Shown in pieces: positions 22,317 through 26,470 of a DNA stretch of 27,495 nt (position 1 is its first letter; the number at the start of each line of letters is the position of its first letter). This DNA is from a virus. The notes beneath the pieces were generated by a model, which made no database searches, had not been told where the DNA came from, and worked only from the letters and a program-made list of their open reading frames with translations. Location of the stretch: positions 1-27,495 of the IMG/VR virus record IMGVR_UViG_3300044630_007768. One strand, given 5' to 3'. Both the position numbers and the translations under genes were made by a program.

Positions 22317-22628
22317 ATGCCCGAGCAGTCCCCGGGATGGTACGCCAAGCCCTTCACGCTGTCGTTCCCGGCGGGCATCATGGCCGTCCTCGGCACCGCT
22401 CTCGTCAGCGCAGCCGCCGCAGGCGGGGTGGGGGCGGCGACGCGCGATGGCGACCTCTCGTCCATCGACGAACGGATCGACGCGAAGGTCGGGGCGGCGG
22501 TGGAGCTGCTCCGGCGCGAGGAGCTCTCCTTCCACGCGGCCGCGGACCAGGTGTCGGCGACACGGTACGACGAGATCCTTCGGCGGCTGGACCGCATCGA
22601 ACGGCAGCTCGACGGGGCTGGGCAGTGA
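22317..22628 (+). CDS. One-TM holin-like protein
   Basis: ATG 22317 has GGAG six bases upstream; the product has 103 residues. One hydrophobic segment (about 15-42: FTLSFPAGIMAVLGTALVSA and the following AAAGG) is followed by a charged helix with coiled-coil character (SSIDERIDAKVGAAVELLRR, then RYDEILRRLDRIERQL). A single membrane span with a charged tail directly before a candidate cell-wall hydrolase fits a holin or a membrane anchor of the lysis system. It overlaps the next gene by four bases (GTGA). Other small membrane roles cannot be excluded. Confidence 0.55.
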   Translation: MPEQSPGWYAKPFTLSFPAGIMAVLGTALVSAAAAGGVGAATRDGDLSSIDERIDAKVGAAVELLRREELSFHAAADQVSATRYDEILRRLDRIERQLDGAGQ

Positions 22629-23212
22629 TCACCACCACGATCCCGGAGCTCCGCGCTCGCCTCGCCCGCGAAGGCCACGTCGTGTTCCGCGGCCCGTTCA
22701 ACCTCACCCTGGGCGTGCTCCGGGCGAACCCCGGCACCCTCGACCGGTGCGACGACCTCTTCTACGCCCTGTTCGAGGACGAGGACGCGGCGTGGCAGCT
22801 CCGGACCTGGGCGTGCACCGCGGACCCTGGCCGCCCGGCCGTGACCGCCCCGCGCCGGCGCGACGGCGTCGCGATCATCGCCACGGGGCAGCACCGCGGC
22901 GCCTACAAGCTCGGGTTCCACAAGGGCGACGACGTGGCGCTCGTGCCCACCCGGCCCATCCCGTGCTGGCGGGACGGGAACCGCGACGAGGTGCTCGACT
23001 ACGAGGGCCCCCTCTACAGCTCTTCGCTGCTCCAGATCCACCGCGGCCCCCGCACCGCCGACCGTCCGGTCGGCCCGTGGTCCGAGGGCTGCATCGCCAT
23101 CGTCGGCAAGGGCATCGACGAGCTGTACGACCTCTGCCAGGTCAACATCGGCCGCGGGCACGGGCGGTCGTTCTCGCTGTCCGTGCTCGAGCACCCGGCG
23201 GCCAACCTGTAA
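22625..23212 (+). CDS. L,D-transpeptidase (YkuD)-like protein, candidate endolysin
   Basis: GTG 22625 overlaps the holin-like stop; the product is 195 residues. It contains a stretch I associate with YkuD-fold proteins of phages and bacteria: GVAIIATGQHRGAYKLGFHK, then CWRDGNRDEVLDYEGPLYSS, then LLQIHRG and GPWSEGCIAIVG. The His of IHRG (about residue 140) and Cys of SEGC (about 156) match the H...S-x-G-C catalytic pattern of L,D-transpeptidases, which act on peptidoglycan cross-links. No other lysin gene was seen, so this may be the endolysin, acting as an L,D-peptidase. The fold call is moderately secure; the lysis role is inferred from context. Confidence 0.6.
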   Translation: MITTTIPELRARLAREGHVVFRGPFNLTLGVLRANPGTLDRCDDLFYALFEDEDAAWQLRTWACTADPGRPAVTAPRRRDGVAIIATGQHRGAYKLGFHKGDDVALVPTRPIPCWRDGNRDEVLDYEGPLYSSSLLQIHRGPRTADRPVGPWSEGCIAIVGKGIDELYDLCQVNIGRGHGRSFSLSVLEHPAANL

Positions 23213-23245
23213 GCCCAGCTTTCAAGTTCCATCTGCGGAGAGCGC

Positions 23246-23623
23246 ATGATCCTGAACGAGCAGCTCGACAACTGGTTCACCTACCACCCGGCCACGGACG
23301 AGACGGAGCCGCGGTACGCGGCGATCCGCGAAGCGGAGATCGTGGCCTCGGGCGCCATCGACGCCATTCGGCACGGCGGCGCAACGCATGATGACGTGAA
23401 CGCCGGTTGTCGCGCCTTCGTTGTGGCCATCGACACGAACGCGCCCGACAGCGCGGACAAAGCGGCGGCGGTCCGCTGCGTCCGGCTGGCACGGAACGCG
23501 GCAAACGAGGCGATCGTGACGATCAACCACGAGCTGCGTGAGGTGGCATGCCGCGAAGCCGAGAGCGAGCTGCGTCGCGCGCGCTGGCAGGCCAACAGCG
23601 CCATCGCCTGCGGGGGGCAGTGA
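23246..23623 (+). CDS. Acb2/Tad1-type hairpin protein, candidate anti-CBASS/anti-Thoeris sponge
   Basis: The 125-residue product has the family landmarks in order: FTYHPAT at 11-17, RYAAIREA at 23-30, NAPDSADKAAAVRCVR at 65-80 and RARWQANSAIACGG at 111-124. Known members of this small helical-hairpin family bind cyclic oligonucleotides (Acb2, blocks CBASS) or cyclic ADP-ribose signals (Tad1, blocks Thoeris). Compared with the usual pattern as I recall it, about 24 extra residues follow IREA and about 27 extra residues precede RWQAN, so both arms look lengthened. It follows the lysis genes and is coupled to the next gene (GTGA 23620). Family recognition is fairly secure; the ligand is unknown. 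Confidence 0.65.
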   Translation: MILNEQLDNWFTYHPATDETEPRYAAIREAEIVASGAIDAIRHGGATHDDVNAGCRAFVVAIDTNAPDSADKAAAVRCVRLARNAANEAIVTINHELREVACREAESELRRARWQANSAIACGGQ

Positions 23624-23916
23624 CCGCGGAGACCACGCACGAAGTCCGCCAGCTCGTCGCCGCCCTCGTCGAGCTCGCCGCCGATGGCGTCCGCGCCGGC
23701 GCCGACGGGCAGCTCTCCGCCGACGAGGTCATCGAGCTCTCTCTCGACGTGGTCGCCCTGGGCGACGCGCTGCGCGACCTGGCCACGCCGAGCGACCCGG
23801 AGAAGGCAGCCGCCCGCGCGCGCGCAGCCGAGGCCCGCCTCGCCGCGCACATCGAGCGGCGCCGGACGAAGCGGCGGCGCCGGCTCCGCGAGACCCGGCG
23901 CGTGGTCGTCGGGTAG
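23620..23916 (+). CDS. Small helical protein with basic tail, unknown
   Basis: GTG 23620 overlaps the upstream stop; the product has 98 residues. The first 60 are helical and acidic (THEVRQLVAALVELAADGVR, then ADGQLSADEVIELSLDVVAL), and the end is strongly basic (AHIERRRTKRRRRLRETRRV). No membrane span is seen. The segment DGQLSADEVIEL resembles small proteins found next to phage holins, but I cannot name a family. It is the last rightward gene of the block and is followed by a hairpin. Confidence 0.5.
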   Translation: MTAETTHEVRQLVAALVELAADGVRAGADGQLSADEVIELSLDVVALGDALRDLATPSDPEKAAARARAAEARLAAHIERRRTKRRRRLRETRRVVVG

Positions 23917-24200: not shown

Positions 24201-25358
24201 CTACGAGCCCCGGAGCGACAGGACGGGGGCCAGCGGCGGCGGAGTCCGGAGGTCCGGGATGCGGGACACGGCCGCCACAAGCTCGGGCCAGAGCGCGCGC
24301 TCGGCCTCGAGGTAGTGCCGCGCGCCCACCCCGGCCGGCTGGTGGCCGAGCAGGTAGTCGATGACCTCCCTCCGCAGCCCGAGCAGCTCGCCCTCGGTCT
24401 GGATCGTCTTCCGGAACGCGTGGCAGGGCTGGCCGCTCCACTTCTCGGCGGCGACGCCCGCGCGCGTCCAGGCCCGGCGCATGGACCGGTCGACGTGGCC
24501 GCGGCCGTCGCCCTGGGCCGCCTCGCGCTCCTTCTCCGGCGCCGGGATGAGGTAGCGGCCGTCGGCGGGGAGCCGCGCGAGCGCGGCGAGGAGGCCGGGG
24601 GCGAGGGGAATGCGGCGCCCGGAAACCTCCCCCTTGGTGGTCTCCACGCGGATGGCGAGCGTGCCGTCCGGGTGGAGGTCAGCCCGCTCCAGCAGGAGCA
24701 GCTCGCTCCGGCGGAGGCCCGTGTACCGGGCCCAGAGCGCGAACACGTACAGCCACGGGGCGCGCGCGTCGTGCTCGAGGCAGGCGAGCACCGCGGCGTC
24801 GCACTCGGCCCAGGTGGGCGCCACCGGGCGAGGCGGGCGGCGCTTCTTCGTCGCGATCTTGCGGGGCGCCTCCTCGAGCCAGCGCTTGTCCGGGCCCTCG
24901 CGGAGCCACTCCCACGCCAGGCGAAGGGCCTGGGCGCGCTTTGCCACCGTGGTGAGCGTCCGCCCGCCGGCGAGGAGCCAGGCCTGCCATCCGACGATCG
25001 CGTCGCGGTCGAGGGCGGTGACCGGAAGCAGCGCCACGTCCTGGCCACGGACCTCGACGAGGTAGCGGAGGAACAGGGCGCAGGCGTCGCCGTAGCCGCT
25101 GGCCGTCCGCGGCTTCACCGTCAGCGCCAGGGAGTCGAGCCAGGCGTCTAGACGCGTGTGGAGAGCGGGCGGCGCGTCCGGGCGGTCGTCGATGGTGACG
25201 CGCCCGTGGAGGGCGAGGTCGGACTCGACGCGTCGCTTGAGAGCGTCGGCGCTCCGCTTGTCGGGGGCGTTGCGCCAGCACCGCTGGGCGCCGCGCCCTT
25301 CCCCGTTGCGCCAGACGACGCGGTATCCGCCTGCTTTCCTCGATTCGATCCACGCCAC
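24201..25358 (-). CDS. int: Tyrosine-family site-specific integrase
   Basis: GTG 25358 is set by GAGGTGG just upstream; the product is 385 residues. The N-terminus (MAWIESRKAGGYRVVWRNGE) is the arm-binding domain style of phage integrases. Residues about 65-160 are the core-binding SAM-like domain. The catalytic domain shows Arg216 (TGLRRSEL), Lys242 (TTKGE), His313 and Arg316 (HAFR), His339 (LLGHQ) and the nucleophile Tyr349 (ARHYLE). It recombines attP with the host attB. The start lies inside the upstream excisionase-like frame, 211 bases before that frame's stop. All catalytic residues are present, so it should be active. Confidence 0.9.
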   Translation of the reverse strand: MAWIESRKAGGYRVVWRNGEGRGAQRCWRNAPDKRSADALKRRVESDLALHGRVTIDDRPDAPPALHTRLDAWLDSLALTVKPRTASGYGDACALFLRYLVEVRGQDVALLPVTALDRDAIVGWQAWLLAGGRTLTTVAKRAQALRLAWEWLREGPDKRWLEEAPRKIATKKRRPPRPVAPTWAECDAAVLACLEHDARAPWLYVFALWARYTGLRRSELLLLERADLHPDGTLAIRVETTKGEVSGRRIPLAPGLLAALARLPADGRYLIPAPEKEREAAQGDGRGHVDRSMRRAWTRAGVAAEKWSGQPCHAFRKTIQTEGELLGLRREVIDYLLGHQPAGVGARHYLEAERALWPELVAAVSRIPDLRTPPPLAPVLSLRGS

Positions 25359-25582: not shown

Positions 25583-25787
25583 CGGAACCCCCGCGCCCGA
25601 GCGCGATCGGCGTCAGCGTGCGACCGGTTCCGTGGCACCAGATGCAGTCCCACACCGACATCCCGTCAAGCCACGGCTCCGAAACGGGCGCGTCTGCCTC
25701 GCCGGTGCCCTCGCACTCCAAACAGGGCGCGGCAGTCGCCTGCGCACGGAGGTCCACGGATCTCCAGTCGGCCGCGTCACTCGCCAT
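25572..25787 (-). CDS. Small zinc-ribbon-like CxxC protein
   Basis: ATG 25787 overlaps the methyltransferase stop (TGATG) and gives 71 residues. It has two DnaJ-type CxxCxGTG motifs: CLECEGTG at about 23-30 and CIWCHGTG at about 50-57. The spacing suggests one bound zinc ion. Small CxxCxG proteins are common in phage accessory operons and are usually of unknown role. It overlaps the excisionase-like gene by 11 bases, so the operon is compact. Confidence 0.6.
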   Translation of the reverse strand: MASDAADWRSVDLRAQATAAPCLECEGTGEADAPVSEPWLDGMSVWDCIWCHGTGRTLTPIALGRGGSDGR

Positions 25788-26470
25788 CACGCCGCCCCCC
25801 GCGCCCGAACCCGCCTCGGCAACCACCCCTCGACCTCCCACCACACCCGCGCGCGCGGTCCCTGGGGCCACCCGCGCACCGGGACGTGCGGCCGGAACAC
25901 GAAGAGCGTGACGCCCCCGGGCGGCTGGCGCCCCGGCGTGCCGTCGGGCCGCGTGAACGGCACCCGAGGGCCGATGCGGACCTCGTCCGCGCGCCGGAAG
26001 GCCCTCTGCCACCAGAGCGTGTCCGTGGCGCTCTCGATCAGCACGCACACGGTGAGGCCCTCGCGGCTCTGGTCCCAGGCGCGGTCCACGAAGGCCCCGG
26101 TGCCCGGGAAGCCCCGGCCGCGGCGACCCCACGGAGGGTTCATGAAGGCCGCGCGCACCTGGCGCCCCCAGCCCTGGACATCCTCCCGCTCGCGGCGGGC
26201 CAGCTTCCAGGGGAGCAGGAGCGCGTCGTCGGCGCGGGGGATGTAGCGGCGGGCGAGGGCGTTCGTCGCGTCCGCGCACGCGTCCAGGTCGAACCGGAAC
26301 TCTTCCATGAGCGGGTCGAAGAGCCAGCGCGGCGTGCGCCACCGCCTCTTTTCGGGCTCGTCGCCGAGCTCGAAGCCACCCGTCACGGTGTCAAGCTCGG
26401 CGACGTGGATTGCCCCGCCCTCGACCCCGAACCGCACGACAGCGGCCTCGGCCGGGTTTACCCGGCTCAC
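25787..26470 (-). CDS. Phage Dam-type adenine-N6 DNA methyltransferase
   Basis: This 227-residue protein matches the phage Dam family: KRRWRTPRWLFDPLMEEFRF leading to DLDACA at 61-66, a YIPRADDALLLPW segment, the catalytic FMNPPWG (NPPW at 111-114), AFVDRAWDQSREG, and DTLWWQRAF then GPRVPFTRPDG near the C-terminus. It transfers a methyl group from S-adenosylmethionine to adenine, probably to evade host restriction or mark phage DNA; the target sequence cannot be read from the protein. Start overlaps the stop of the upstream gene (26467-26470). The catalytic motif is intact. Confidence 0.85.
   Translation of the reverse strand: MSRVNPAEAAVVRFGVEGGAIHVAELDTVTGGFELGDEPEKRRWRTPRWLFDPLMEEFRFDLDACADATNALARRYIPRADDALLLPWKLARREREDVQGWGRQVRAAFMNPPWGRRGRGFPGTGAFVDRAWDQSREGLTVCVLIESATDTLWWQRAFRRADEVRIGPRVPFTRPDGTPGRQPPGGVTLFVFRPHVPVRGWPQGPRARVWWEVEGWLPRRVRARGAA

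Follow-up and report, generated by a model that had tools for sequence, protein, structure and literature searches.

Phage sponges act as symmetric oligomers. The window analysed here, a stretch of 27,495 nucleotides of viral DNA, encodes at 23246–23623 a 125-residue protein (P0001) with the landmarks of the Acb2/Tad1 hairpin proteins and with additional residues in both arms of the hairpin. The question raised by this locus is what these additional residues build – a longer hairpin, or a different architecture – and what the resulting protein might do for the phage.

The hairpin gene and its family

As the window has a GC content of 72% and many of its frames are open, we checked the hairpin reading frame by homology. 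Eleven distinct homologues, originating from viral contigs and one bacterial MAG, align with P0001 over the full length and in the same frame at 36–54% identity: the open reading frame at 23246–23623 (+) is real, and its frame and coordinates are exact. The gene and its immediate surroundings are organised as follows:

23237..23240, + strand: GGAG, likely ribosome-binding site, 5 bases before the ATG at 23246 (sequence inspection)
23246..23623, + strand: coding sequence of the long-form Acb2/Tad1-hairpin protein P0001, 125 aa (ORF list, family matches, homologues)
23620..23916, + strand: next gene, 98 aa, beginning with a GTG that overlaps the hairpin gene's TGA stop (GTGA; reading frame)

The gene at 23620–23916 is probably translationally coupled to the hairpin gene and is a candidate functional partner of the hairpin protein; a search with its longer, ATG-start reading returned no family match. 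The phage itself is probably a temperate tailed phage. Elsewhere in the window we found an integrase at 24201–25358 (−) and, near it, a Dam-type N6-adenine methyltransferase at 25787–26470 (−; PF05869, E = 8e-20), and methylation by the phage of its own DNA is possible. The protein encoded in the lysis position at 22625–23209 (+) contains a GPWSEGCIAI motif and matches L,D-transpeptidase (YkuD) weakly (E = 8e-4, below cutoff) as well as phrog_3000; a YkuD-like fold as a phage endolysin would be unusual.

The family landmarks FTYH, YAAIREA, PDSADK and RWQANSAIACGG are found in P0001, and the kinship proposed in the sequence-only reading with Acb2/Tad1 was borne out by profile searches. P0001 matches phrog_1454 (E = 1e-8) and the Acb2/Tad1 hairpin model PF24729 (E = 1e-3), the latter with 19.7 bits against a gathering cutoff of 27, the single-copy model being split by the insert; other long forms reach the cutoff or exceed it (L012, L004, L042 and L016 with 31.4, 29.4, 28.2 and 27.0 bits, respectively). 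PF24729 is also matched by all 20 short forms and, at 7e-20, by T4 Acb2 (vs.4). The profiles of the long (A4) and short (A3) forms align with 99.7% probability in hhalign, and phrog_31113 is matched by all five long forms scanned. Comparison of the single T4 Acb2 sequence with the short-form profile by hhalign was uninformative, and the bridge between the two is the Pfam model. Judged by these sequence comparisons, P0001 is a member of the PF24729 hairpin family. NCBIfam yielded nothing, and only chance matches came back when the PDB sequences were searched with P0001 or with the profile of the long forms. A tblastn search of annotated phages produced no convincing long form. A single weak PADLOC match to Csx19 (E = 0.03) was taken as chance.

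Two insertions and a predicted nested hairpin

The closest single-hairpin relatives of P0001 are short phage proteins of ~70 aa (65 distinct cores; phrog_1454) that are ~30–40% identical to it and share its FTYH, IREA, PxSADxTAAIR and ANxAIAC landmarks, but possess one hairpin with no nested copy. Compared to these 70-aa relatives (L005, L018–L040), P0001 is extended by 24 residues in arm 1 after YAAIREA, in agreement with the estimate from the sequence alone, and by 30 residues in arm 2 before ARWQAN, where the addition had been correctly placed but its length put at about 27. Both additions are present in all 11 distinct homologues, and the inserts are therefore not chance. We recovered 79 distinct proteins in total (65 short, 12 long and 2 short forms with an extra tail), and among these there are no one-insert-only or intermediate forms; the two inserts therefore arrive as a unit.

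Other departures from the 70-aa form were also seen: in L041:1520-2119 a short Acb2/Tad1-type hairpin is fused to ~125 residues of unrelated C-terminal sequence, and L045 (Mycobacterium phage ScoobyDoobyDoo) carries a C-terminal extension unlike that of L041. The hairpin tip of T4 Acb2 (vs.4, L046:7079-7345) is longer than that of the 70-aa proteins; even proven sponges thus differ in arm length.

The sequence-only reading had suggested that the two arms may have grown in step, into a longer coiled hairpin or with a new pocket; on this view the pocket would lie midway along the arms. The coupling of the insertions holds; the matching of their lengths does not, since in the 12 long forms – which are mutually related, making counts over them non-independent – the inserts span 20–44 residues in arm 1 and 28–53 in arm 2 with no correlation (r = -0.39), and such unequal lengths are ill suited to a longer paired hairpin. 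The AlphaFold2 model of P0001, run with the 12 long forms (pLDDT 96.2, pTM 0.88), also speaks against it: the chain forms five helices (4–10, 21–41, 48–65, 70–91 and 95–121), with breaks at residues 42–47 and 92–94, and folds back so that the last four helices make up a compact four-helix bundle, in which a second hairpin fills the tip loop of the outer one. Furthermore, the Foldseek and VIA alignments of the model, which extend over 100+ residues, are to compact four-helix bundles, as expected of a bundle and not of a rod. While base and tip residues are conserved on either end of the inserts, as would suit a lengthened hairpin, we consider this explanation highly improbable.

The predicted elements of P0001 map onto the window as follows:

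23255..23287, + strand: N-terminal short helix and FTYH motif, residues 4–14, with Tyr13 (model, alignment, PMC12657230)
23306..23368, + strand: outer hairpin arm 1, helix 21–41 (model, conserved Y24, I27, R28 and E31)
23387..23518, + strand: inner (nested) hairpin copy, helices 48–65 and 70–91 (profile comparisons, model, conserved residues)
23528..23608, + strand: outer hairpin arm 2, helix 95–121, ending in ARWQANSAIA (profile comparisons, model)

The helices of the short form, as modelled by AlphaFold2 (4–10, 21–41 and 46–75), have the same outer boundaries, and the outer helices of P0001 are thus sized as a complete short-form hairpin. The nested double-hairpin architecture is well supported by prediction. 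The same predicted fold is seen in A0A6J5S3V7 (uncultured Caudovirales phage, 128 aa, BFVD; TM 0.76, 32% identity), an unnamed and uncharacterised protein that is a probable long form. The Foldseek and VIA matches to the long model are to generic four-helix bundles (FAT, alpha-catenin and talin), have Z scores of 10–12, as can be expected between unrelated helical bundles, and are without functional meaning; Acb2 is absent from both listings, an outcome that is uninformative. The short model had no significant Foldseek match.

Is the inner hairpin a second copy of the outer one? A 20-sequence short-form profile covers the short forms in one segment only and the long forms in two to three, namely the stretch from the N-terminus to IREA, an entire hairpin (approximately profile positions 23–68) and, in seven long forms, the C-terminal end (53–72); positions 23–32 and 53–68 are covered twice. 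The independently built Pfam model behaves similarly: PF24729 reports two stretches in L001, L002, L012 and L016, and matches the inner hairpin alone (residues 51–94 of L001 to model positions 13–57, 45–93 of L004 to 13–55, and 47–92 of L043 to 11–57). When each insert flank is slid over the whole profile, its best-scoring register is precisely the homologous one. The inner copy begins at or before profile position 27 in all of the real proteins (12/12) as compared to 7.9% of those with shuffled insert residues, and its end reaches position 64 or later in 11/12 as compared to 20.7%. In a stricter column permutation, the arm-1 flank remains distinct (p ~5e-5), and the arm-2 flank, with p of 0.01–0.03, is by this sequence measure the weaker half of the argument for a nested copy. 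These comparisons favour reading the inserts as the two flanks of a second complete hairpin, nested within the tip loop of the outer one.

This modest signal at the C-terminal flank is compatible with a different history, in which the protein is a four-helix bundle of the Acb2/Tad1 family whose two added helices are unrelated to the hairpin and resemble it through a convergent amphipathic pattern, with no duplication. The insert sequences are, in addition, very variable among the long forms, and AlphaFold2 is silent on homology. Given the shared register of both flanks, the excess over shuffled sequences and the Pfam matches to the inner copy, we regard convergence as unlikely. The Acb2/Tad1 hairpin family itself is already known, and the long form would be a nested-duplication variant of it; no such form is described in the literature searched, a limited open-access set that did not contain the original Acb2 and Tad1 descriptions.

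Conserved residues, genome position and possible function

Acb2 and Tad1 sequester signals in pockets shared between protomers, the dinucleotide pockets of Acb2 lying between head-to-head protomers of the hexamer (PMC12043709, PMC10419184). Acb2 (anti-CBASS 2; T4 Vs.4, PDB 7UQ2; Pseudomonas phage p26, PDB 8H2J/8IXZ), which binds cyclic di- and trinucleotides and inhibits CBASS, has the PF24729 domain in common with P0001, as well as a short N-terminal helix followed by an antiparallel helix pair, to which the P0001 model adds the hairpin at 48–91. However, an Acb2 chain of ~90 aa supplies one hairpin to a homo-hexamer, whereas P0001 is predicted to be a one-chain four-helix bundle. Tad1 (Thoeris anti-defence 1; CbTad1, PDB 8KBF), a gcADPR-binding inhibitor of Thoeris, is likewise a helical hairpin under the same Pfam name, to which our short-form model aligns weakly (Z 5.0, 51 residues). 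Unlike Tad1, which has an N-terminal antiparallel beta-sheet (PMC12043709), P0001 is all-helical in the AlphaFold2 model, with no strands.

The Y8A mutant of T4 Acb2 is binding-deficient (PMC12657230), and this ligand residue, Tyr8, aligns with Tyr13 of P0001, which is invariant in 12/12 long and 20/20 short forms; T4 Lys23 aligns with Arg28. Tyr8 is the one pocket residue used here as a test of kinship with Acb2. Of the canonical conserved residues, some are kept in one copy and some in the other. The outer copy retains the FTYH element and the equivalents of Tyr24, Arg28, Ala62 and Ala67; the inner one retains those of Ala35, Arg53, Arg56 and Asn63 (Arg77, Arg80 and Asn87 in P0001) and has Asn52 at the position corresponding to Arg28. 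In sequence terms, such a division is the pattern that a single-chain pseudo-dimer would be expected to show, although part of it, and perhaps much, could also be explained by one hairpin having been split into base and tip. The conserved residues of the inner hairpin – R77, R80, R83, N87 and E88 – share one side of its second helix, opposite an alanine-rich side, and may form a ligand or subunit contact.

Our preferred interpretation, to which we assign a probability of roughly 0.6, is that P0001 is an Acb2-like single-chain pseudo-dimer with a nested hairpin, most likely a counter-defence sponge that sequesters a nucleotide immune signal; the equivalence to the Acb2 assembly, the ligand binding and the counter-defence role are each inferred. 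The first hairpin (21–41 and 95–121) would be complete and would carry a second two-helix hairpin (48–91) in its tip loop, and the chain would fold up-down-up-down into a bundle, perhaps replacing a pair of ordinary sponge subunits. The outer copy would supply the FTYH element and Arg28 and the inner copy the second-arm strip of Arg and Asn residues, so that one asymmetric chain would provide both halves that two identical Acb2 protomers provide. The signal sequestered would be that of a CBASS- or Thoeris-type defence.

The genomic setting of the long forms can be read in two ways. In L002, L004 and L042 the gene lies between portal and head genes; it adjoins an exonuclease gene in L012 and follows a thymidylate-synthase-like gene in L010 and tail genes in L017. 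In the window, it sits behind lysis-like genes, in agreement with the accessory position after the lysis genes originally proposed; a conserved lysis neighbourhood was rejected, as the other long forms sit elsewhere. Such a highly variable position fits an accessory counter-defence gene. At the same time, several copies lie amid late structural or lysis genes (the window, L017, L002, L004 and L042), which is unusual for an anti-signal protein and would rather suit a hairpin scaffold that has no sponge role, such as a late-expressed structural, host-takeover or regulatory small protein. Function is known for a minority of PF24729 family members, and the polar strip of the inner helix could make protein contacts. 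Set against this are the positional variability and the invariance of Tyr13, the counterpart of a proven Acb2 ligand residue, and we rate a non-sponge role as a serious possibility that falls short of even odds.

Returning to the pseudo-dimeric sponge, we more tentatively propose, and hold to be rather doubtful in its full extent, that the nested, non-tandem duplication turned a symmetric oligomeric sponge into a pseudo-dimer with divided ligand residues, and thereby freed an asymmetric site for a different, asymmetric nucleotide signal. An altered ligand or assembly of the long form is plausible.

A single-chain duplicated sponge would show how a symmetric site can turn asymmetric and shift its specificity, and the 12 diverse natural long forms would constitute a set for trial against cyclic nucleotides and gcADPR. 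As the one-domain PF24729 model under-calls the long forms, surveys of anti-defence genes may overlook them.
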